From a virus, in IMG/VR virus record IMGVR_UViG_3300031224_000021, positions 1 to 42,339 of that record: a stretch of DNA of 42,339 nt; one strand, given 5' to 3'. The position numbers and the translations under genes are program-made. Within the stretch, counting starts at the first letter, position 1. Each line of letters opens with the position of its first letter. Below are positions 3,820-26,624 of the stretch, in pieces. Below the pieces are notes generated by a model that saw only the letters and a list, made by a program, of their open reading frames with translations, did not search any database and was not told where the DNA came from.

Positions 3820-3836
3820 AGTATTTATATTTGTTT

Positions 3837-3875
3837 GTTATATAAATATATAACAATTAGTGGTTAAATGACAAC
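3837..3875 (-). promoter_or_regulatory. Promoter with 18-bp palindrome, before ligase A subunit
   Basis: TTGTCA on the minus strand (plus 3869-3874), 14 bp, then the palindrome at 3837-3854 containing TATATT. The -35 to -10 spacing is 18 bp. Further upstream the sequence GTTAACAACTTTG (about 3895-3907) recurs in similar form before other members. Confidence 0.75.
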
Positions 3876-3936
3876 TTAAACAGTTAAAAATAGGCAAAGT
3901 TGTTAACATGTTGCAGTTCAATATTGAGTTGCTTTC

Positions 3937-6035: not shown

Positions 6036-6058
6036 AATAGATGTATTAGTTTTTTATT

Positions 6059-6096
6059 GTTATATAAATATATAACAATTAGTGCATAAATGACAC
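6059..6096 (-). promoter_or_regulatory. Promoter with 18-bp palindrome
   Basis: Perfect palindrome at 6059-6076; GTGTCA (plus 6091-6096) lies 14 bp upstream on the minus strand. Upstream of it are two copies of GTTAAC-type sequence (about 6108-6130), as found before other members. Confidence 0.7.
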
Positions 6097-6141
6097 CTTA
6101 ATTTGTTAACTTTTCAATAACTTGTTAACAAAAACGCTTGA

Positions 6142-6365: not shown

Positions 6366-6914
6366 CTATAGGCTAAACGTCCACATTTTTGGGTTGCTAA
6401 ATAGTTTACGTTCAAGTTTAGCCTGGTCCCTCTCTTTTTGGTTGCTAGGTCTAGTTAGACCTGTACTGTCTTTTGTTTGTTGCAGCAATGGCTCTTTTGG
6501 TGAAGTTTGGCCTCTTGTATTTCTTTTGTACTTTGTTGGTCTCTTTGAAGATTGAGCCATTGTGCTAGTATCAGTCTTAGCCTTTGTTGCTGTTGCAGTC
6601 TTTCGTTTTAGTAAAATATTGGTAGCCGTTTTTATTTCGTGTTCAGAAAGCAAAGATACAAAGTCTTCTACTATGTTTGCTAATTGCAAGCCCCATACTT
6701 TTTGTTTGTACAGACCTGTTTTTTTGCCGTCAAAGAACCTGTACGTCTCGTACCACATATTTTGACCGCGTACAGATGTAATTGAAATACAAAGTTGTGC
6801 GGCGTCAATAGTACACAACTCGTAGTGTTGACCTGTACAATTTTTAATGCCTAGCTGTGACAATTTTAGTAATTCAAATTCAATTAACAGTTTATTTTCT
6901 TGTACTTTTGTCAT
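6366..6914 (-). CDS. Hypothetical protein with long basic tail, 182 aa
   Basis: Residues 1-100 form an alpha/beta domain (CTIDAAQLCISITSV, MWYETYRFFDGKKTGLY, VEDFVSLLSEHEIKTATNIL). Residues about 103-182 are low-complexity and strongly basic (TATATKAKTDTS, KRPTKYKRNTRGQTSP, KERDQAKLERKLF), which suggests nucleic acid binding or a disordered tail. It overlaps the stop of the kinase gene by ATGA. I do not recognise the family. Confidence 0.65.
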   Translation of the reverse strand: MTKVQENKLLIEFELLKLSQLGIKNCTGQHYELCTIDAAQLCISITSVRGQNMWYETYRFFDGKKTGLYKQKVWGLQLANIVEDFVSLLSEHEIKTATNILLKRKTATATKAKTDTSTMAQSSKRPTKYKRNTRGQTSPKEPLLQQTKDSTGLTRPSNQKERDQAKLERKLFSNPKMWTFSL

Positions 6915-8544: not shown

Positions 8545-9021
8545 TTAAATTTCTGAATTTTTGACTTCTACACTATTGCCATCTTGTAAATCAAGCATGT
8601 AACTGTCTTTTAATATTAGTGTAACTGTGCCACTTTGGCCTGACCATTTACCCATCTTTACAGTCACTGTGTCACCTTGACCTATGCCTTCTGTTACCGC
8701 TTCTGTTACCGGGTCTTGCAACCAACGCCCTGACTGTTTAGCCCTGCCTGATATTATTGCCTGAAAGTCAGACTTTGACATATCAGTCCACAGTTCAAGT
8801 GTCTCTTCGTCCCATTTTGCAACCGCCTGTTTTGTCTTAATACTTAATAAAATATCAAGGCCACTGTCGGTAACTGTTCTCAAAGACCTGTTTGTTGCCT
8901 TGGCTATTTTAACAAATGTACGCCATTCATGTGGCATTATTGTAAAACGATTGCCAAGAATGTCAGACTCGTTAACGGTTGTCGCCAAGGTCTCTGTAAG
9001 GTGTTTACTTAATGATTTCAT
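8545..9021 (-). CDS. Predicted packaged protein with KOW-like C-terminus, 158 aa
   Basis: The start is set at 9021 because it gives MKSLSKHLTE|TL, a member of the shared propeptide family, and an A-rich leader with AACTATG; the frame upstream to 9072 overlaps the gene before it. The last about 45 residues (GQGDTVTVKMGKWSGQSGTVTLI, then YMLDLQDGNSVEVKNSEI) match a KOW/SH3-type barrel, as in NusG and ribosomal L24, suggesting RNA, ribosome or polymerase contact. The middle is helical (HEWRTFVKIAKATNRSLRTV). Cargo likely released by cleavage after LTE. Confidence 0.75.
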   Translation of the reverse strand: MKSLSKHLTETLATTVNESDILGNRFTIMPHEWRTFVKIAKATNRSLRTVTDSGLDILLSIKTKQAVAKWDEETLELWTDMSKSDFQAIISGRAKQSGRWLQDPVTEAVTEGIGQGDTVTVKMGKWSGQSGTVTLILKDSYMLDLQDGNSVEVKNSEI

Positions 9022-9048
9022 AGTTGTTTTGCCTAGTAATTTCGTGTG

Positions 9049-9085
9049 TTTATCAATAGTTGACTTTATCAATAGTTGACTTTAT
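9049..9085. repeat. 16-bp tandem duplication at a gene 3' end
   Basis: The unit TCAATAGTTGACTTTA occurs twice in a row (period 16). It covers the stop codon region of the gene at 9053-9457. As a result the codons for IKSTIDK at the end of that protein are repeated out of frame just after its stop, which creates a false upward extension of the next gene. This looks like a recent replication slippage. Confidence 0.8.
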
Positions 9086-9457
9086 GTCTTGTATGACATT
9101 ATCGTCGATGCTATATAGCGTAGTATTATCTAGTTGCAAAGTATCTCGTGGATCAATTTTGAGATTAGGGAATCGTTTAGCAAAGTCTGCTAATTCTTGT
9201 CCTGCCTTGTCCAAATCTTTAATAATTATGGATTCTGCACCACCTTTTTTGTCTTGCTTAACAAAACTGGCAAGATTACGTTTGTTATTAGACGTGATCG
9301 GTACAATAGCAATGCTAACAGGTTTACGTCCTGTCGGTTTAGTTTGACCTGGACGCATAATGTTAATCATTTCAGTATAGACATAGAGATTGATAATCTC
9401 TTGCCCTGCTTCATCAATTTGAAACGATTCTGTAATGTGTGTGCTTAATGATTTCAT
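9053..9457 (-). CDS. Predicted packaged protein, 134 aa
   Basis: Begins MKSLSTHITE|SF. The body has an alpha/beta pattern: INLYVYTEMINIM, GRKPVSIAIVPI, ESIIIKDLDKAGQELADFAKRF, then a basic C-terminus. No known domain seen. The leader at 9458-9508 is almost pure A on the minus strand with three copies of a 10-base AAAAAAGAAC-like unit; it nearly matches the leader sequence that has become coding inside the fused gene at 11310-12362. Confidence 0.75.
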   Translation of the reverse strand: MKSLSTHITESFQIDEAGQEIINLYVYTEMINIMRPGQTKPTGRKPVSIAIVPITSNNKRNLASFVKQDKKGGAESIIIKDLDKAGQELADFAKRFPNLKIDPRDTLQLDNTTLYSIDDNVIQDIKSTIDKVNY

Positions 9458-9508
9458 AGTTTTCTTTTTTTTTTTTGTTATTTTTTGTTCTTTTTTGTTC
9501 TTTTTTGT

Positions 9509-10108
9509 TTAGCTATAGTAGACACATTCGGAGCCCTTATCACCGCCGGCACTCGCGCCTATTTGTATGTTTAACTTATTCCCAAACTGAGATAGGGCCG
9601 CAATGATCTTATCTGCCATTTCGTCATCGTAACCACGACCTAGAGCAAATCCAATAGTGTTGTCACCGTCTGTTACGATAAAACTTGTATACACTACAGC
9701 GTCATACAAGGCCTTGCTAATATCTAAAGCGCTAATACCTCTAACTGGTTCAGGTATTTTAAGTATCGATATAGAATCTAACGTCAACGTAATATTACCA
9801 ACGAATTTATTTCGACCATTTCTACTAGAGACAGCAAACAATTCACCCATTATATAATTGCCTTGCGGTTTTACATTTTTAACTACTGTTCCTTTTTCAA
9901 TGATAGTAGGTACAACACCAAATGGATTAGGGCTAACGACTACTTCATCATATCTGTCGAAGTCTTCTTCTGAGATTTCTTTAAAGTCTGTGCCTTCTCT
10001 TAAGTCTTTAGTAATGACTAAATCAAATCCACTTTTGGCTGCTGACTTGACATCTTGGACAGCTTCGTTGACGAATGATTCTGTAATGTGGGTGCTTAAT
10101 GATTTCAT
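9509..10108 (-). CDS. Predicted packaged protein, 199 aa
   Basis: Begins MKSLSTHITE|SFVNEA; cleavage after ITE expected. The first half has GFDLVITKDLREGTDF, an acidic segment (EISEEDFDRYDEVVVSPNPFG), then a strand-rich part (GTVVKNVKPQGNYIMGELFAVSS) resembling a small barrel. The second half (LDISKALYDAVVYTSFIVTDGDNTIGFALG, then DEMADKIIAALSQFG) is alpha/beta. No domain identified. Nucleotides of the first about 12 codons are almost identical to those of the neighbouring genes, pointing to recent spread of the propeptide cassette. Confidence 0.75.
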   Translation of the reverse strand: MKSLSTHITESFVNEAVQDVKSAAKSGFDLVITKDLREGTDFKEISEEDFDRYDEVVVSPNPFGVVPTIIEKGTVVKNVKPQGNYIMGELFAVSSRNGRNKFVGNITLTLDSISILKIPEPVRGISALDISKALYDAVVYTSFIVTDGDNTIGFALGRGYDDEMADKIIAALSQFGNKLNIQIGASAGGDKGSECVYYS

Positions 10109-10126
10109 ATTTTTTCATTTTGTTTT

Positions 10127-10450
10127 TTATTCCTTAAAACCAGAACTTAGAACAACAGTCCTACTGCTATCAGATTCAAACAGGTTGCCGTTAACTGGTA
10201 CAACAACGTATTTTAAACGATAGTGCTTACGTTCTCCGGGCGACATTGATTTATTCATTCTTTTTGCTTTCGCCGTGGCGTCTTCCTTACTGAACAGCTG
10301 TTCATCTTTTGGTACCGGCATGCCCTTAAATTCCCTAGCGTTTGACGGTCTTGGCTTGTCGCCTATAGAGCCTCCTGTTAACATAACAGCAAACATGCTA
10401 TTTGACTCGTTGACAAATGATTCTGTAATATGTGTGCTTAATGATTTCAT
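10127..10450 (-). CDS. Predicted packaged protein, 107 aa
   Basis: The start at 10450 gives MKSLSTHITE|SFVNES; seven extra codons up to 10471 are in frame but overlap the preceding gene and lack the conserved leader. Body: SMFAVMLTGGSIGDKPRPSN, then a basic segment (SKEDATAKAKRMNKSMSPGERKHYRLKYVVVPV). This helix-loop with many Lys/Arg and the final strand pair are compatible with a small nucleic-acid or protein-binding fold. Not recognised. Confidence 0.75.
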   Translation of the reverse strand: MKSLSTHITESFVNESNSMFAVMLTGGSIGDKPRPSNAREFKGMPVPKDEQLFSKEDATAKAKRMNKSMSPGERKHYRLKYVVVPVNGNLFESDSSRTVVLSSGFKE

Positions 10451-10467
10451 AGTTGTTTTTATTTGTG

Positions 10468-10824
10468 TCATTTATCTATTGATATGTTAAAGTTATAATC
10501 AGTGTTACCAGGTAATTGAAAACTTACGTTATGCTTTGCCAAGTCATTACCTAGTCTTTTAAAACTAATACCACATGATCTATCAAAATAAAAAACGATT
10601 TGCTTACCTGCATCCCATATACCATGTATACTATAGTCTGGGCTACCTACTTTAAAACTATCTTCTATAATACTTTGCATATGTGGATAAACTTGTATGA
10701 TCTCTTTGTATACTTTAAAATTATGTGTAGGATTACCGTTCTGTGCTTCTGTAAAATTATCGTCTTTCATTTCGTTTAGCAAACCGCCGAATGATTCTGT
10801 AATATGTGTGCTTAATGATTTCAT
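10468..10824 (-). CDS. Predicted packaged protein, 118 aa
   Basis: Begins MKSLSTHITE|SFGGLL. A second LNE at residues 16-18 (GLLNEM) could be another (L/I)xE cut site. Body is alpha/beta: IQVYPHMQSIIEDSFKVG, then SIHGIWDAGKQIVFYFDRSCGISFKRLGNDLAKH, then a beta ending (VSFQLPGNTDYNFNISI). This reminds me of small phage proteins with one helix packed on a sheet, but I do not recognise the family. Spacing of 17 bases to the preceding stop contains the conserved AACAACT leader. Confidence 0.75.
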   Translation of the reverse strand: MKSLSTHITESFGGLLNEMKDDNFTEAQNGNPTHNFKVYKEIIQVYPHMQSIIEDSFKVGSPDYSIHGIWDAGKQIVFYFDRSCGISFKRLGNDLAKHNVSFQLPGNTDYNFNISIDK

Positions 10825-10842
10825 AGTTGTTTTTGTGTGTTA

Positions 10843-11292
10843 TTACATGTTAAGTACGGACATACAAAACCATTCTAAACCGTAGTCAAACATACTGTCA
10901 TCACCTACTGGTGAACCTTGCTGATCTTTAATGTAAGTCTTTGCTTGTTGTGGCAATGCTTTCATGTAGCCTGCTAGGTCAGAATCATCAGTCTCTTGCG
11001 TCATTATACAACCGACTATTGTGTCGAAGTGCTTACGATCCGAAGCGCTAATTTGTTTAAACTCTGGAAAAGAAACAATAGCTAATTTATATAAATCTGC
11101 AGCAGCCTGTATTTCGTCAGTTCGCCAAACAATTTCTAAAGTGTGTGATAACCAGCGACCAGCATTCATATATTTAGGGTCGTTTTTATTGTCAAGACCA
11201 GCCGGGTTATCTGATAACCATTTTTCATAGTTTGGAGCCGTAACCTTGCTGAAACTAAATGATTCTGTAATGTGTGCGCTTAATGATTTCAT
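10843..11292 (-). CDS. Predicted packaged protein, 149 aa
   Basis: Begins MKSLSAHITE|SF. The body is mainly helical: NYEKWLSDNPAGLDNKNDPKY, RWLSHTLEIVWRTDEIQAAADLYKLAIVSFPEF, DRKHFDTIVGCIMTQETDDSDLAGYMKAL, and ends YGLEWFCMSVLNM. No catalytic motif stands out. Its spacing to both neighbours (17-18 bases) matches the rest of the array. Confidence 0.75.
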   Translation of the reverse strand: MKSLSAHITESFSFSKVTAPNYEKWLSDNPAGLDNKNDPKYMNAGRWLSHTLEIVWRTDEIQAAADLYKLAIVSFPEFKQISASDRKHFDTIVGCIMTQETDDSDLAGYMKALPQQAKTYIKDQQGSPVGDDSMFDYGLEWFCMSVLNM

Positions 11293-11309: not shown

Positions 11310-12362
11310 TTATTTTATTGCTTCAGGTAATGCTATTTCTTTACTAAATCGATATGTTTCTGCCTGTTGTCTTGAGACGTTTGTGCCTGCTTCAAATTTA
11401 TGTAGCTCTTGTACACTGTTAAATATTACAGGGCCATCTGTTTCATAACCACGAAAGTATGCCATATACGTAGCTCGATCATTTTGTAACTTTGTCAATA
11501 CAAACGTTTGAGATGACTTTTTGTTGTAATATCTAGGCCAACCTGATACCATTTCACTAGCCTCGTTAACTAATGATTCGGTGATATGTGTGCTTAATGA
11601 TTTTATAGTTTTCTTTTTCTTTTTGTTATTTTTTGATTCAGCAACATAAGGGTCTCTAATATCAATATCACCATTGGACATTGACTTAGTAACTTTATCA
11701 ACTTGTTCTGGTTCTATTTTTGGCATGTCCTTTCGGGCCGGTGCACCAACTGGAGGCTTTGCAGCTTGTAGCATAGAAAGTCTTTTTGATATAGTACTGG
11801 CACCAATGCTTTCGTACCAATCAATTGCTTTTTGTTGGTTGTAAAATGCAACATCCATGCCTTTACCTTTGTAAATGCTGTCTTCAATATCTGAAACTGT
11901 CGCCTTAAATACGTTAAGGTCACCAGAAACCTGATCGTTGCCTCTTTTGTTACCATAATTGTCACCAGCTGCACGAAGTACTGGTATAAGATCACCAATT
12001 GTCATGTTAGCTTTGCTAACATCTAGTATTGCATTAGGATTATTAAACATCGTAGCAGCCCATCTATGGTGACCGTCTAGTATACGATTTTCTTTACTAA
12101 CAATACTGCCAAGATCACCACCAGAAACACCACCAATCGCCATGCTTAAAGATTTACCTAAGTAAACAGCATCTTGTGAAGCAAGAAGCTCTTTTGCTGA
12201 TATTTTAACTTTTACTGTCTTAACAATGTCATCGACCTTGTTACCATCTCGTTGACCCTTGCTGAAAAAGTCACGATCAGTTTTGCCGCCGTTCGGAAAA
12301 CGGGTAGCATCAACATCTTGTGTAGCCAATTTTTCGTTAATGTATGAAGTTATACTTTTCAT
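11310..12362 (-). CDS. Fused packaged protein: ParB-like cargo plus a second cargo with an internal propeptide
   Basis: The N-terminus MKSITSYINE|KL is a propeptide variant. Residues about 45-130 contain a ParB/sulfiredoxin-superfamily pattern, with SKENRILDGHHRWAAT (the DGHHR motif) followed by helices. About residues 225-252 form a linker (DPYVAESKNNKKKKK). At codon 253, minus 11606-11604, the sequence TIKSLSTHITE|SLVNEA repeats the propeptide, with ATA where other genes have ATG. The bases coding KNNKKKKK are almost identical to the noncoding leader of the gene at 9053-9457. So two genes were joined by loss of a start codon and readthrough. The second cargo is about 90 residues (GWPRYYNKKSSQTFVLTKL, then HKFEAGTNVSRQQAETYRF). 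If the head protease cuts both sites, one chain gives two cargos. Confidence 0.8.
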   Translation of the reverse strand: MKSITSYINEKLATQDVDATRFPNGGKTDRDFFSKGQRDGNKVDDIVKTVKVKISAKELLASQDAVYLGKSLSMAIGGVSGGDLGSIVSKENRILDGHHRWAATMFNNPNAILDVSKANMTIGDLIPVLRAAGDNYGNKRGNDQVSGDLNVFKATVSDIEDSIYKGKGMDVAFYNQQKAIDWYESIGASTISKRLSMLQAAKPPVGAPARKDMPKIEPEQVDKVTKSMSNGDIDIRDPYVAESKNNKKKKKTIKSLSTHITESLVNEASEMVSGWPRYYNKKSSQTFVLTKLQNDRATYMAYFRGYETDGPVIFNSVQELHKFEAGTNVSRQQAETYRFSKEIALPEAIK

Positions 12363-12751: not shown

Positions 12752-15700
12752 TTATTTTCTGTATTTTAAGTTTGAACCGCCTGTGTCAGGAAAGACTTCT
12801 ATAACCTTAGAGTCCTTAAATGTTAGCGTGTGGTCAACAATGACAACCTGGCAGCCCTTACTAATAGTTGCTATAAATTGCTGAACCAATTCTTTGTAAT
12901 TTCTTGCCTCGTATGTAAGGTCTTTGCCGTCGTTTAGCTTACCAGATATTTCATCAATCATTAAGACATTAAATTGTTTGCTACCGTTTAACTGCCTCAT
13001 AATATTAATCAAGGCCAGGGCTATGACTGTCGTTTGCATACCTGATACAAATTGTACTGGTCTCATAACATCTTGCTTAAGATCGATAAATTTAAGCTCC
13101 AATGTGTCTTGATCGAATTGTAGTCTAAAGTCTACGCCTTCAAGGCTTTCGTTTAGCTTAGTATTAATTAGACCAACAATATGTGCAAATATGTACTGAG
13201 GCAGGCCATGTTTACCAAGCAGTCGTTTATACAATTTAAGACTTGATTCAACTAGTCTCCATTGTCTAACTTCTCCTATTTTGCCGTTAAGTATTTCAAC
13301 CTGTTGAATACCTGATGCCTTTTCTTGCGCGAATGCGGCTAGTGTTTCATTAACTGACCTTGCCTGTTCTTTCATGTCACCTAGCAACCTGTCTTGCGTG
13401 TCTATCTTTAATTGTGTTTCTTTATTTTCTATTGACCATCTTAGCCTTTGTGTAAGCAGTTGTTGTGTACCCCTTTCTTTTTCATTGTCTACCAAGTGAA
13501 GCTTAACCGCATCATTAAGTTCCTGTATGTTGTCATCAATTGTGGCTAGTTCTGCAAGCTTGGCTTCAATTTTAGCCATATCAATCTTAATGTCTATAAC
13601 TGCCTGTTTTAGCAAGGCCTCTGACCCCTTGTGCTCTTCAAGTTCTTGAGTAACCTTTACTATTTGTGACTTTGCTTCAATAACACGATCGTGTTGCTTA
13701 AGTTTTGCACCTAGTTCTGCACCAAAGTGAACAACTTCAGCAGTAAGAGTCTCTAGCTGTTCACTTTGGTCTGCTAACTCCTTTGTTATTGCCTGACCCA
13801 TTGCAAAAGCCTGTTGCCATTCTGAAATATTAGGTACTGTTTCACCTAAAAGTAAGGCTTTAAGCTTTATCGACTCTTTGTTATGCTCTGCCTGTATGGC
13901 TTTGTTTAGTTCAATCTTTGTCTGACACTGTGACCAATCTGCCTTTATGGTGTCAACCTTTCCGCCTAGCAATAGCATTTCTGCTTCTTGGTCTACTATT
14001 GACTTCTTTACTGTTACTATTTGTTTGTCAATTGCCTCTTGTGCACTTTTTGATTTTGTTTGCTTACAGGTTAGGCAAACCTTAGATGTTACTAAGTCAG
14101 CAACCTTTTTTTCTGCACGTTCTATCTTTTCAGTAATTGTCTTTTTTGCCATTGCGACTTCTGCGGCTACAATTTTTATTGCTGACAGTGCATCATTAAG
14201 ACCTGAGCCAACTGTAATAGACTTGTTGAGTAATTCATCAACTGCATTTTTGCTACGCTGTACTTCATTTAACCAAGAAGCCACGTGGGCTGACTTTTTG
14301 CCTTTAAGTTCTAGTATTAATTCTCTCTTTGCTGAAATTGACTTTTCTTGTATTGCTATTTCACTATTTAACTCAAACGTAACGTCTTTAACTATTAGTA
14401 CTGCATCAGACTTTTTAGCATCAATAGTTTGCCTTATTGACTCTGCCCTTTGTTCACTTTGTTCTACCTTATGCCTAGCGTTAACAAGTTTAAGTTCTAA
14501 GGCATGACTACCGTCTTTTAACTTGTCAATTGACATTGAATCTTTGGTTGCCAGTAAGAGGTCTAGACGAGCCTGTTTTTCAGTAATTGTATCCTGTCGC
14601 CTTGCCACATTTGCGTTAATGACTTCTATTTGTGCGTCTATAATGTGCGTCTTGTCTACCTGATGCAGTTTAGAACGTAACCCGTTTGTGTCTTTAGTCT
14701 TCGCGTCTACCTCTGTCTCAATTGCCTCTGCTTCTGACCGCTTGGCCTTGGTATCATGCTCTAAAGTTTGAGCTTTGGTTTCAATCTGTGCTATTTGTTC
14801 GACAATTTGATTTACTGTCATTGCAGGTTTAGCCAACGGACCAAGCTTTGCAGCCTTAACATCTTCTATTTGACCCAGTAGGTCTGTCATTGCATCAAGA
14901 CCAATAATGTTTAAGAATCTAGCAGACAAGTCTTCAGGCTTCATATTAATTAGACGATCGAAAGAAAAGCTGTTAATGAATACAAGTTGCTCTAACTCTT
15001 GAAAAGTAAATAAACTGTCCATGTATTCCACAACTTCTTGTGTGTTATCAGTTGTAAGGTTAGACGAAGTTAGGGTTAATGACATCGTTGGCGTACCAGA
15101 TAGGTTGTCTATCCAATTTTTAGCAAATATGTCTTTTTTGCCTTTTTTCCAAGAACGGGTTAACGTCTTAACCAATTTGTGTGGTTTACCGTTAACAATA
15201 AACTTAAGTTCACCACTAACAGTGTCAGCTTCTGAATGATCATTAAAATACAGGGCGTAGTTATATCGTTTGTTTCTTAGATTTTGACTACTACTTATTT
15301 GATCTTTAGTCATCCATTTTAAAAAGTCAAACAGTTTTGTTTTGCCAACACCATTGGCCCCCGTTATCTTAGTAATTGGTGCATTACCAAATCGTATTTG
15401 TACATCTTTTGTAAATGACATAAAGTTACTAACAGTACCGCCGATAATGTCAATGCTTAATTTTTTGTTAGTCAAGTCTGCAGCAAGCAATTGTTCTTCA
15501 AACATTTCATATATCATTGCTGCTGATGCTTCACGATCTTCTGTTTCAATTGTTGTTGACTGTTTAACAATAGTGTCTATGTACTTTTTTGAAATCTTTA
15601 GCATTTTGTCCTTATCAACTATTTGTGATAAGTCAGCATATTCCGTAGTATCAACCTCAACACTAAGGACATCTTTGGCCCAGTCTGTTTCAACAGAGCA

Positions 15701-16726
15701 AGTATACTTAGACTTAAAGTGTCGAACTAGGGCCTCTTCATTTTTAGTAAATTCACTAAGGCCAGATTTGCAAACCAGTCTAATCTTATTTAGTTCTGTA
15801 GCCTCAATACTTAGTAATGCAGTCATAGTTTCATAATCAAACTTGTCAGACAGGTATATCGTATGCCTACTAACAACCTGATTAAGACTAAAAAATTCAA
15901 TATCAACAACCCGGTTAATGTCAGTATCAAAAGTCAAAATGTTGTAGCCATGCTGACAGTTACCCTTTACTGTCAATTTGTGACCATCGTAATAGTCACC
16001 TTCACCAAAATTACGCTGTACTAGTGAACTACAATATGTAAATGTCTTGTCACCGTCTCTAACAATGTCAGGTGCATGAATATCACCAGCAAGTACTGTT
16101 GGTGCCTGAAAGTCTGCCATCGTAATTTTGTAATTTTCGAAATGCTTACTAGGTTGACCGTCAAAGTGTTTGCAACCCATAACTGGATCGTGAAACAATT
16201 CAATAACAGAAGATGTTTTTACTGACTTAATGTCATTGTCTACCCAAGGGCTATATGCTGGTTTTACGTCAGCCATACTATGCTTGGTCCATTGTGACCA
16301 AACTGCCCAGGTAATGTCAAAAGTAGTGTCCTCGTAGAGTCCGGTTTTTTGGTAATATGATATTTTAGGTGACTTTACTGCAGTAACAGCAAGATCAATA
16401 GCATCGGTTAAGTTTCTTTTTTCTGTGCTAGTCGTTAGTGCAATACCTCTTTGTCTAACATCGTGATTCCCAGGTATGATGATGACTCTTTTGCAAGTGG
16501 GTAAAATAGCATGTAAGTGTTGAGTAAACAATTTTAACTCTTCAGCATTAGCATCTTGAAATTCAAAAATATCACCAGGAATAACTATAATGTCAGGTTG
16601 CATCCTTTGAGCAACTGCTTCGATGTCTTGAAGACCTCTTGCAAATTCATCATATCTTTGTGCACCAGTACCGCTGGTTCTAACTTCTATTTGAATATCT
16701 GCGTAATGCAACATTTGTATTTTCAT
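12752..16726 (-). CDS. Fused gp47-gp46 recombination nuclease (SbcD-SbcC / Mre11-Rad50 type)
   Basis: Residues 1 to about 420 are an Mre11-type metallophosphoesterase: YADIQ (residues 8-12), PGDIFEF (50-56), PGNHD (85-89), LFHDP (177-181), GDIHAPD (214-220). The first motif is normally DxH; here it is DxQ. Residues about 425-1324 are a Rad50/SbcC-type ATPase: Walker A GANGVGKT (456-463), long coiled coil with a zinc hook CLTC near residue 880, signature-like VSGMQTTVIALALINI, and Walker B NVLMIDEISGKL near 1257. In T4 these are two proteins that make DNA ends single-stranded for recombination-dependent replication. A single 1324-aa polypeptide is unusual. It shares an operon with a DNA glycosylase upstream. 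Confidence 0.92.
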   Translation of the reverse strand: MKIQMLHYADIQIEVRTSGTGAQRYDEFARGLQDIEAVAQRMQPDIIVIPGDIFEFQDANAEELKLFTQHLHAILPTCKRVIIIPGNHDVRQRGIALTTSTEKRNLTDAIDLAVTAVKSPKISYYQKTGLYEDTTFDITWAVWSQWTKHSMADVKPAYSPWVDNDIKSVKTSSVIELFHDPVMGCKHFDGQPSKHFENYKITMADFQAPTVLAGDIHAPDIVRDGDKTFTYCSSLVQRNFGEGDYYDGHKLTVKGNCQHGYNILTFDTDINRVVDIEFFSLNQVVSRHTIYLSDKFDYETMTALLSIEATELNKIRLVCKSGLSEFTKNEEALVRHFKSKYTCSVETDWAKDVLSVEVDTTEYADLSQIVDKDKMLKISKKYIDTIVKQSTTIETEDREASAAMIYEMFEEQLLAADLTNKKLSIDIIGGTVSNFMSFTKDVQIRFGNAPITKITGANGVGKTKLFDFLKWMTKDQISSSQNLRNKRYNYALYFNDHSEADTVSGELKFIVNGKPHKLVKTLTRSWKKGKKDIFAKNWIDNLSGTPTMSLTLTSSNLTTDNTQEVVEYMDSLFTFQELEQLVFINSFSFDRLINMKPEDLSARFLNIIGLDAMTDLLGQIEDVKAAKLGPLAKPAMTVNQIVEQIAQIETKAQTLEHDTKAKRSEAEAIETEVDAKTKDTNGLRSKLHQVDKTHIIDAQIEVINANVARRQDTITEKQARLDLLLATKDSMSIDKLKDGSHALELKLVNARHKVEQSEQRAESIRQTIDAKKSDAVLIVKDVTFELNSEIAIQEKSISAKRELILELKGKKSAHVASWLNEVQRSKNAVDELLNKSITVGSGLNDALSAIKIVAAEVAMAKKTITEKIERAEKKVADLVTSKVCLTCKQTKSKSAQEAIDKQIVTVKKSIVDQEAEMLLLGGKVDTIKADWSQCQTKIELNKAIQAEHNKESIKLKALLLGETVPNISEWQQAFAMGQAITKELADQSEQLETLTAEVVHFGAELGAKLKQHDRVIEAKSQIVKVTQELEEHKGSEALLKQAVIDIKIDMAKIEAKLAELATIDDNIQELNDAVKLHLVDNEKERGTQQLLTQRLRWSIENKETQLKIDTQDRLLGDMKEQARSVNETLAAFAQEKASGIQQVEILNGKIGEVRQWRLVESSLKLYKRLLGKHGLPQYIFAHIVGLINTKLNESLEGVDFRLQFDQDTLELKFIDLKQDVMRPVQFVSGMQTTVIALALINIMRQLNGSKQFNVLMIDEISGKLNDGKDLTYEARNYKELVQQFIATISKGCQVVIVDHTLTFKDSKVIEVFPDTGGSNLKYRK

Positions 16727-18777: not shown

Positions 18778-18800
18778 AATAGTTGTATTTATTTATTGGT

Positions 18801-18838
18801 GTTATATAAATATATAACAATTAGTGGTTATATGACAA
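18801..18838 (-). promoter_or_regulatory. Promoter with 18-bp palindrome, before the RyR gene
   Basis: Palindrome at 18801-18818; TTGTCA on the minus strand (plus 18833-18838) 14 bp upstream. Upstream is TTGAAAATTTAACACTTTAA (about 18840-18859), shared with the elements at 23070 and 26587. The 150-base gap 18778-18928 holds only this. Confidence 0.75.
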
Positions 18839-18928
18839 CTTAAAGTGTTAAATTTTCAAAAGAAAATTGTTGCTTTGCATAAAATTTCAAGAAGTTGTTA
18901 CATTTAATTACTCATACTTAATTGTCTT

Positions 18929-22358: not shown

Positions 22359-22398
22359 TTTTTCTTTTTAGATTATATATCAATAGGTTGTAATTAAA

Positions 22399-22546
22399 AG
22401 CTATTGTATTACTAAACAGCTATTGTATTACTAACAGCTATTGTATTACTAACAGCTATTGTATTACTAAACAGCTATTGTATTACTAACAGCTATTGTA
22501 TTACTAACAGCTATTGTATTACTAAACAGCTATTGTATTACTAAAC
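22399..22546. repeat. Minisatellite: 8 copies of an 18/19-bp unit at a gene 3' end
   Basis: Unit AGCTATTGTATTACTAAAC (19 bp) or the same with one A less (18 bp). Copy lengths in plus order are 19, 18, 18, 19, 18, 18, 19, 19, so there is also a 55-bp higher order (19+18+18). The unit at 22528-22546 and part of the one before it code for the last residues (FSNTIAV and stop) of the hydrolase gene; the other copies lie downstream of the stop. Variation in copy number would not change the protein, since the first unit brings the stop. Confidence 0.9.
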
Positions 22547-23049
22547 AGTACCATGTCTTTAATATAGCGGCTAAAACCGAGTACTGCATGGCCTCCTGGT
22601 ATTCTTTTTACTTCAGTTGACCGTAATACTTGACCTGGTATTTCTGAATAGTCTAATATTTCATCCTCTCTTGGCAGCAATAGCATAGCATCATTTAATG
22701 TTGCAACTGTGACAATTTGATCAATTATGTTTTTGGGTAGAATAGAAGAGTCAATAAGCTGTTTTGTATTAAAAATTGGTGCAATTATTATTAACTTACA
22801 CCATGAGTTTGCCTTTGTTATTTCAGTTCTAAATTGTAAAGCGAGGTTTGAACCAGCAGAGTCACCAATAATCAATACATCTTTAGTAGACGTTGACATT
22901 TCAACTGCTAAAGTTTTAATTCTTTGACTTAGTTGCTTTTCTGTTGGTGTCCAATAAAAACATTTTGCCTGAGGCCATTGCTTTTGTATTGCTAAAAATT
23001 TAGGTGACTGAGGTCCACTGTTTAGACCGTGAAAATATAGTACTTGCAT
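22522..23049 (-). CDS. Small alpha/beta hydrolase (YqiA/RBBP9-like), 175 aa
   Basis: Begins MQVLYFHGLNSGPQSPKF, the typical strand plus HGLxSxPxSxK start of YqiA-type esterases. The nucleophile elbow is GDSAGSN (Ser about residue 65) after VLIIGD. A Glu/Asp-rich part (LLPREDEILDYSEIPGQVL) and the last His in PGGHAVLGF (about residue 154) can complete the triad. The substrate is unknown; related proteins cleave short acyl esters. The end of the gene is inside the minisatellite at 22399-22546. Single gene after a palindromic promoter. Confidence 0.8.
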   Translation of the reverse strand: MQVLYFHGLNSGPQSPKFLAIQKQWPQAKCFYWTPTEKQLSQRIKTLAVEMSTSTKDVLIIGDSAGSNLALQFRTEITKANSWCKLIIIAPIFNTKQLIDSSILPKNIIDQIVTVATLNDAMLLLPREDEILDYSEIPGQVLRSTEVKRIPGGHAVLGFSRYIKDMVLFSNTIAV

Positions 23050-24014: not shown

Positions 24015-24035
24015 AATTTCTATTTGTTTTTTATT

Positions 24036-24066
24036 GTTATATAAATATATAACAAATAAATGACAC
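24036..24066 (-). promoter_or_regulatory. Promoter with 18-bp palindrome and short spacing
   Basis: Perfect palindrome at 24036-24053. The nearest TGTCA is only 7 bp upstream (plus 24061-24066), unlike 14 bp elsewhere, so the -35 assignment here is uncertain, or seven bases were lost. Confidence 0.55.
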
Positions 24067-24119: not shown

Positions 24120-25382
24120 TTAGTTTAAGTTTTTAAACAGTTTTTTCATGTTGTTAACCATGCTATCAATTGCAACAGCTTGTTCTTTACCAATAAGGCT
24201 ATTTATTTTATCGACTGACGCCTTGCTATTTAATTCTTTGTAGTATTCACCAACTTTAATATTTAAAAGTCGACCAATTTTGCTTGCTAATTTAGTGTCC
24301 ATAAACTTAGACATCATTTCTAATCCATCAACTCGAAAAAAGTAGTCTTGTTCGGTTGATAAGTTTAGCATTTCAAATTCTTGAACGAGACTGCCCCCTA
24401 ATTGATCAATTGCCTGTTTAACTTTTTCTTGGTCTGCATCAGTAAATAGATGCAAATACGCCAAAAGATTTCTATTAAAACCTTTAGCAAATAGTATAGC
24501 CTTAACTTGCTTTTTATCTTTAAGCAATGAGTCTGTACCATATTCACTTGAATACTTATCATCTCTTTCTGGTTCTAAAAATTGACCTGCTTTAGTTATT
24601 GCGTCATAACTGTCCATTGTGCCCGTTTTAATCACCCAACTTGCACTTGTCATGCCACCAGAAAACATTTGAAATAGGTGTTTTCTAGAATCGTCATTCA
24701 ATTGCTCTTCATAATTAGCTAAAATATGTTCTAGCATTGAGTAGTCCATTTGTTGACCAAGACCACTTTTTATCTTTCGCTGTTTCATGACATATTCGTT
24801 TAGGTCTACAATATCTTTAACACCTTGTCTGTGTGGCTTAAACGTTTTTAAAATCTTAACAACATAGTTACCAGCTGGCAGTATAAGCTCGTCTTCTTGA
24901 CTAACGTGTGGCACTAGACTAACGTCTATTGCCTGTTCTCGCCTAATAACCGTTTCAATGATAACACCATATCCTTGCGTATAGTCTTTTACTTTTCTTC
25001 TTTGATCTTCAGACTTAAAAAATTCACGACCAAGCAGCATAATGTTATTTGTTGGTGATGTTAAGGCAAACTGTTGTGCAGTGTCGACAGATCGAGTCCA
25101 GCTAGTATAGCCTGACAGGTCTATTTTGTTACTTTTGATGTCAGCAACAAATCCTTTGTAACTTTCAATATCCCTAAAAAATAGACCTCTGAAAGCAAGC
25201 ATCTTTTTTTGATTTGGGTACTTTTTTAGTAAAGAATTTAGTGCAGCCGGGTCAATGAACCCAACACTTGCGTCATAGACATATGCTGCCAGTTTTCCTT
25301 CTGGCTCATGGTCATCATAGTATGATGACCATTGACCTTCTGCGACAAGAGATTCAGTAAGATGTTTACTTAATGCCTTCAT
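24120..25382 (-). CDS. Predicted packaged ADP-ribosyltransferase, 420 aa
   Basis: Propeptide MKALSKHLTE|SL, then an ART domain of the R-S-E class. R65 in LAFRGLFF is the NAD-binding Arg; YTSWTRSVDTAQQFA (about 92-106) is the STS-like strand; SQEDELILPAG has the ExE motif with E163 and E165. The order and spacing match T4 Alt/ModA and VIP2-type toxins. T4 Alt is also packaged, injected and modifies host RNA polymerase, so this is a likely functional analogue. Residues about 200-420 are helical (EHILANYEEQLNDDSRKHLFQ and others) and may guide packaging or targeting. It heads toward a hairpin terminator and follows two other packaged-protein genes. Confidence 0.85.
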   Translation of the reverse strand: MKALSKHLTESLVAEGQWSSYYDDHEPEGKLAAYVYDASVGFIDPAALNSLLKKYPNQKKMLAFRGLFFRDIESYKGFVADIKSNKIDLSGYTSWTRSVDTAQQFALTSPTNNIMLLGREFFKSEDQRRKVKDYTQGYGVIIETVIRREQAIDVSLVPHVSQEDELILPAGNYVVKILKTFKPHRQGVKDIVDLNEYVMKQRKIKSGLGQQMDYSMLEHILANYEEQLNDDSRKHLFQMFSGGMTSASWVIKTGTMDSYDAITKAGQFLEPERDDKYSSEYGTDSLLKDKKQVKAILFAKGFNRNLLAYLHLFTDADQEKVKQAIDQLGGSLVQEFEMLNLSTEQDYFFRVDGLEMMSKFMDTKLASKIGRLLNIKVGEYYKELNSKASVDKINSLIGKEQAVAIDSMVNNMKKLFKNLN

Positions 25383-26570: not shown

Positions 26571-26586
26571 TATTGTTGTTTTTATT

Positions 26587-26624
26587 GTTATATAAATATA
26601 TAACAATTAGACTCTTTAGAGCAA
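26587..26624 (-). promoter_or_regulatory. Promoter with 18-bp palindrome
   Basis: Perfect palindrome at 26587-26604; the hexamer 14 bp upstream is TTGCTC (plus 26619-26624), a weaker form of TTGTCA. Upstream it shares TTGAAAATTTAACA with the elements at 18801 and 23070. Confidence 0.65.

Follow-up and report, generated by a model that had tools for sequence, protein, structure and literature searches.

A putative two-cargo polyprotein delimited by capsid-targeting propeptides in a T4-like phage

Polyproteins are common in RNA viruses; in tailed phages, to our knowledge, they have rarely been described. The capsid-targeting propeptide (CTS) of phage T4 is about 10 residues long, its targeting depends mainly on positions 4 and 7 and its processing on positions 8 and 10, and the head protease gp21 cuts after L/I-X-E (PMC9026906). 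The authors who described polyvalent proteins drew an analogy with polyproteins (Iyer et al. 2017, PMC5512222), and our literature search, which covered open-licence papers only, found no earlier description of natural CTS polyproteins.

We analysed a window of 42,339 nucleotides, which is the whole stretch taken from the viral record IMGVR_UViG_3300031224_000021. Its sequence suggests, with a probability of roughly 0.7, that the gene at 11310-12362 encodes a CTS-delimited two-cargo polyprotein of a T4-like phage, which would be cut in the prohead to free two proteins and would have arisen by fusion. The features on which the analysis is based are as follows:

11310..12362, minus strand: single ORF, cargo fusion of 350 aa, open throughout with no internal stop
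12333..12362, minus strand: N-terminal CTS MKSITSYINE, residues 1-10, predicted cut after E10
11646..12311, minus strand: ParB/Srx-like cargo domain, residues 18-239, from a 51-row alignment, AlphaFold2 and Foldseek
11607..11645, minus strand: linker VAESKNNKKKKKT, residues 240-252, from the leader match and the stop position of stand-alone relatives
11604..11606, minus strand: ATA codon, residue 253, replacing the ATG of a stand-alone cargo gene
11577..11606, minus strand: internal propeptide IKSLSTHITE, residues 253-262, predicted cut after E262
11313..11576, minus strand: second cargo, residues 263-350, 88 aa, from its in-frame coding score; no known homologue
8545..11292, minus strand: six separate cargo genes with an MKSLS-type CTS, starting at 9021, 9457, 10108, 10450, 10824 and 11292
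9458..9508, minus strand: A-rich leader of the cargo gene at 9053-9457, compared with the linker

The N-terminal CTS, with its length of 10 and I8-x-E10, fits the T4 rule, as do the CTS decapeptides of the window generally (a hydrophobic residue at position 4, Tyr or His at 7, I8 and E10); relatives carry the versions MKHIKTYQEFINE and MKKLISFEQFVINE. With the predicted cut written as a slash, the N-terminus reads MKSITSYINE/K and the internal site IKSLSTHITE/S, and the latter differs from the common MKSLSTHITE in its first residue only. Both sites match the L/I-X-E rule and appear intact, as the first-pass annotation had proposed, although its internal cut after residue about 263 had to be moved to after residue 262. 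That annotation had also described the ORF on the minus strand with codon 253 as ATA at 11604-11606, followed by the full KSLSTHITE, and this proved accurate. The 30-base DNA pattern of the CTS occurs seven times in the window (0 expected from 100 shuffles), and the six other copies all begin with ATG. A recognisable CTS is present in about a dozen of the window's ORFs, each time before a different body, so that a propeptide of about 10 residues ending in L/I-X-E is shared here by several unrelated putative mature proteins, as in T4. One of the CTS proteins, of 420 aa (24120-25382, MKALSKHLTE/S), resembles ADP-ribosyltransferases by eye and is perhaps a counterpart of Alt; it gave only a weak PHROG match, to a family of unknown function. 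The window also encodes, at 12752-16726, a 1324-aa chain that joins an SbcD-like phosphoesterase and an SbcC-like ATPase, the counterparts of T4 gp47 and gp46.

The DNA before the ATA codon, GAATCAAAAAATAACAAAAAGAAAAAGAAAACT, is identical in 31 of 34 columns to the leader of the gene at 9053-9457, which upholds the earlier claim that the lysine codons of the linker repeat this leader nearly base for base. Both sequences are A-rich; the local alignment score was 26, and the best of 500 composition-preserving shuffles of the leader reached 25. The linker therefore looks like a former untranslated leader. Since no stop interrupts the CTS frame within the leader of the 9053-9457 gene, a fusion needed the loss of the upstream stop only, and the loss of the ATG would be a separate step. 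Of the stop and start losses that had been proposed, the fusion itself is supported by relatives (below); because no homologue of the second cargo was found, we infer both losses in the lineage of the window, and only that of the stop is required.

The near-complete conservation of the leader would also be expected if ATA were a rare start codon, from which the second cargo was also made alone with its own CTS. AUA differs from AUG by a single base and can support weak initiation. In a paper on non-canonical initiation we found nothing on AUA as a start. Against this reading, all other copies of the CTS in the window use ATG, and no stop separates the two cargo parts. The only in-frame ATG, GTG or TTG codons near codon 253 are codons 228, 271 and 289, and a normal CTS protein would start at none of them; the predicted second product thus lacks a canonical internal start, as is characteristic of viral polyproteins. 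We regard initiation at ATA as improbable.

As the window is a metagenome assembly and the linker is rich in homopolymers, the ATA and the missing stop could in principle be sequencing or assembly errors. Contig IMGVR_UViG_3300031223_000012 has the same sequence across the fusion, including the ATA, while it differs from the window elsewhere (two SNPs in 16 kb and one repeat indel); it is not fully independent, because the two contigs may stem from one site or sample series. An ATA in place of the internal ATG is also found in an unrelated contig, L056, and errors would be needed at two places, the start and the stop. These observations make a base-calling error at the ATA unlikely and largely refute errors as the source of the fusion. 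The same 350-aa ORF is present in L001/L048. The repeat indel lies in a short tandem repeat at 22395-22548 of the window. A separate, dispersed repeat of about 32-69 bases with 90-100% identity (3821-3888, 6051-6101, 18785-18852, 24021-24058 and 26579-26610) may serve as a common promoter or leader.

The first cargo had been called ParB-like. AlphaFold2 predicted a well-folded ParB part at residues about 10-240 (pLDDT mostly above 90), with the linker and the internal CTS outside this domain and low confidence after about residue 240. In a Foldseek search against the PDB, the best 14 matches all belonged to the ParB/Srx superfamily (ParB, Atu1540 and sulfiredoxin), but they were weak (E at least 0.06) and a Pfam search of the 350-aa protein gave no match, including no peptidase domain, so that the identity suggested by the predicted fold is weakly supported. 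Pfam searches of the fusion protein together with its neighbours gave nothing useful either, and the ParB-like family phrog_1033 matched only the relative L006 (E 0.058). The motif LDGHHR is invariant in all 51 alignment rows, and R100 is a candidate for the conserved active-site arginine of ParB/Srx. Cultured phages gave weak ParB matches in Aeromonas phage 65 (a 142-aa protein without CTS) and in Pseudomonas phages. A PDB sequence search with a five-row ParB profile hit only a nanobody, by chance. In several ORFs (L119 166-1194, L121 5821-6906, L123 2-1066, also L125-L127), the ParB-like cargo is seemingly circularly permuted, with the C-terminal part first (KATxxD...GKNMDPKFYNKEKA...RGDMPVIPP...IDVRPPYA) and the LDGHHRW-containing N-terminal part after it; such ORFs would result if a tandem fusion were later trimmed.

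To compare the locus with relatives, we used five relatives at first and then fetched 80 loci. The comparison with two-gene relatives that had been suggested as a check on the fusion agreed with it, in that the ParB-like part ends at the same place, pairs of two-gene and fused loci occur, and L056 shows a parallel difference between ATG and ATA. Stand-alone ParB-like relatives stop 1-6 residues past a conserved PY, which is the start of the window linker. When rows extended at the C-terminus by some 50 residues or more were counted as fused, 18 of the 51 rows were fused and 33 stood alone, and the tree of the 51 rows required at least 10 changes between the two states. In L061, the stop of the ParB gene ends at 6762 and a CTS gene, MKNIPSFDNFINE..., begins 15 bases on, whereas in its sister L064 a single ORF, ...NESKVPTFKKFINESLSPDL..., joins the two genes (identity between the loci 80% in the ParB part and 88% in the second cargo; dN 0.048 and dS 0.858 for the latter). 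The junction in L055 and L057 reads ACT ATG AAA GCG TTA AAC GAA TTT TTA AAC GAA, with the ATG kept, and that in L056 reads ACT ATA AAA GGA TTA AAC GAA ..., with ATA in its place. Across this difference, the second cargo of the L055 group has dN/dS values of 0.17 and 0.11 (purifying selection), suggesting that selection on the second cargo has persisted in a second lineage despite the lack of an ATG. By the AU test, a clade uniting the window with L055-L058 was not rejected (p 0.46); the window and L055 have unrelated second cargos, which argues for separate events in the two ATA cases. Taken together, the sequences indicate that such fusions are frequent in related phages, with the internal ATG kept in some and lost in others, and with some chains of many modules. 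Two stand-alone ParB ORFs have CTS-like tails (L061 5989-6762, NIPTFEKFVR; L068 5983-6768, FMKFSDFVNE), as if fused and then split, so some gene pairs may be fissions.

The cut site is not always kept on fusion. In L077 and L073 the ParB and cargo genes are separate, the stop overlapping the start, and in L087 and L065 the two genes are fused and the internal CTS is lost, which indicates that uncut fusions are tolerated. The chain of the window might likewise be cut only at its N-terminal CTS and act as one bifunctional protein, the internal CTS being a relic. We consider this unlikely, if less so than initiation at ATA, since 9 of the 10 residues of the window's internal CTS are intact, I8 and E10 among them, and in L055-L057 and L064, where the start codon varies or is gone, the internal CTS is retained with its x-N-E end. 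Retention of the CTS while the start changes is expected if the peptide, and not the start, is under selection.

The second cargo codes, by codon usage, in the fusion frame only (0.357 bits/codon, all other frames being negative), and the adjacent cargo genes score 0.21-0.35 bits/codon. No homologue of it was found in viral contigs, in phage isolates (E up to 1) or, apart from the CTS, in the fetched loci. With no known relative, selection on it in the window is not directly measurable, as would also be the case if it were a decaying or useless passenger. Its 88 codons nevertheless remain open with normal codon usage, and fused second cargos in the parallel cases have dN/dS values of 0.06-0.32; we find a passenger slightly less credible even than a start at ATA.

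Chains with more than two modules were also observed. Of 53 ORFs that start with a CTS, eight also contain an internal CTS core, against 0.39 expected by shuffling, some of the eight being related to one another or due to chance; the matches in L058 and L039 look like chance. The ORF at 5143-8574 of L053 (identical in L054) encodes 1143 aa with a ParB domain inside and seven ES-x-NE motifs (0.021 expected from shuffles), and its segments 103-200, 768-837 and 1045-1143 start at or beside these motifs and match separate ORFs with their own N-terminal CTS in other contigs. L044 has a 741-aa ORF in the same style. In the companion contig G001, a 356-aa ORF has MRKFTTKINES at its start and MTTNNKHKN-MKSLSQRLNES inside, with the ATG kept. 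Predicted cut sites thus lie at module borders, another feature of viral polyproteins, in the window linker, L055-L057, L064 and L053. The Pelagibacter phage HTVC008M has one module in common with L053, in a 596-aa protein that is not clearly CTS-delimited. L036, from a companion contig of the same metagenome, has a two-CTS ORF at 509-1585 with the internal ATG kept; a frame at 1536-2423 of L036 reads into an internal CTS but lacks one at its N-terminus, and was left out of the counts. The ORFs of about 1000 aa at 3258-6302 of L006 and 3940-7065 of L108 combine a metallopeptidase-like N-terminal domain (HELVHHAQN) with a ParB cargo, and have several CTS-like stretches between domains in a layout nearer to that of polyvalent proteins. 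The chances seem even that environmental T4-like phages repeatedly make cargo polyproteins of 2 to about 10 modules by read-through fusion, reusing the CTS as an internal cut site and portable module border, with erosion of internal starts and packaging in a fixed ratio.

No gp21-family protease gene was found in the window contig, which is a fragment. Such a gene (phrog_207, 'head maturation protease') is present in G002 (E 7e-49), a contig from the same metagenome as the near-identical twin contig of the window, whose tetranucleotide signature correlates with that of the window at r 0.967 (0.16-0.41 for other relatives); the family is also found in G017, the 294-kb contig carrying the fused L064 (E 2e-42). 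By analogy with T4, the N-terminal CTS would bring the complete 350-aa chain into the core of the prohead, where a gp21-like head protease would cut after E10 and E262, at the I-x-E sites. Cutting would free two proteins, the ParB/Srx-like one, which would keep a lysine-rich tail and the former CTS at its end, and the 88-aa second cargo. They would be packaged along with the DNA and reach the host by ejection, in a fixed and presumably equal ratio. The predicted tail of the freed ParB-like protein is KNNKKKKKTIKSLSTHITE. Lysines of T4 internal proteins contact the packaged DNA (PMC3012670), and we speculate that the tail could hold the ParB-like cargo on DNA. As for the origin, a ParB-like CTS gene would have lost its stop, so that translation continued through the leader and propeptide of the adjoining cargo gene, and we propose that the ATG of the second cargo became ATA because the start was no longer needed after fusion.

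If confirmed, T4-like phages would build injected payloads by fusing tagged genes and leaving the head protease to separate the parts, which would explain the shuffling of cargo sets and their fixed ratio. The route is testable, as separate, fused-with-start and fused-without-start states stand side by side in L055/L056/L057 and L061/L064. With confirmation, gene finders could also use recurring x-N-E motifs as a guide to reading long phage proteins now labelled 'hypothetical'.

The locus resembles the T4 internal proteins (IPI, IPII, IPIII and Alt) in its 10-residue N-terminal propeptide ending in I/L-x-E, in the sharing of this propeptide by unrelated cargos and in the gp21-family protease, found here in companion contigs. 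T4, however, has one cargo per gene, whereas here a full second propeptide delimits a second cargo in the chain. Several internal head-protease sites, here predicted, are also known from the T4 core proteins gp22, gp67 and gp68, in which cutting breaks down the scaffold; here the segments that lie between the sites would be cargo. As in polyvalent proteins, one phage polypeptide would deliver several effector domains, a ParB-like one included; release in some of their members is attributed to embedded peptidase domains (Iyer et al. 2017, PMC5512222), whereas none was found here and the borders are repeated CTS or cut motifs, which a separate head protease would recognise. The head proteins of the giant phages phiKZ and SPN3US are similar in having a gp21-related head protease, a short motif ending in E and, as predicted here, packaging and ejection, but their propeptides, which are cut after glutamate, are terminal and no two-cargo precursor has been reported (PMC10052503), while one propeptide is internal here. 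Finally, GFP and staphylococcal nuclease have been packaged in T4 by joining a CTS to them (PMC3012670), showing that a CTS carries another protein into the head; those constructs were laboratory-made with one cargo, whereas the present gene is natural and would have two cargos and two CTS.
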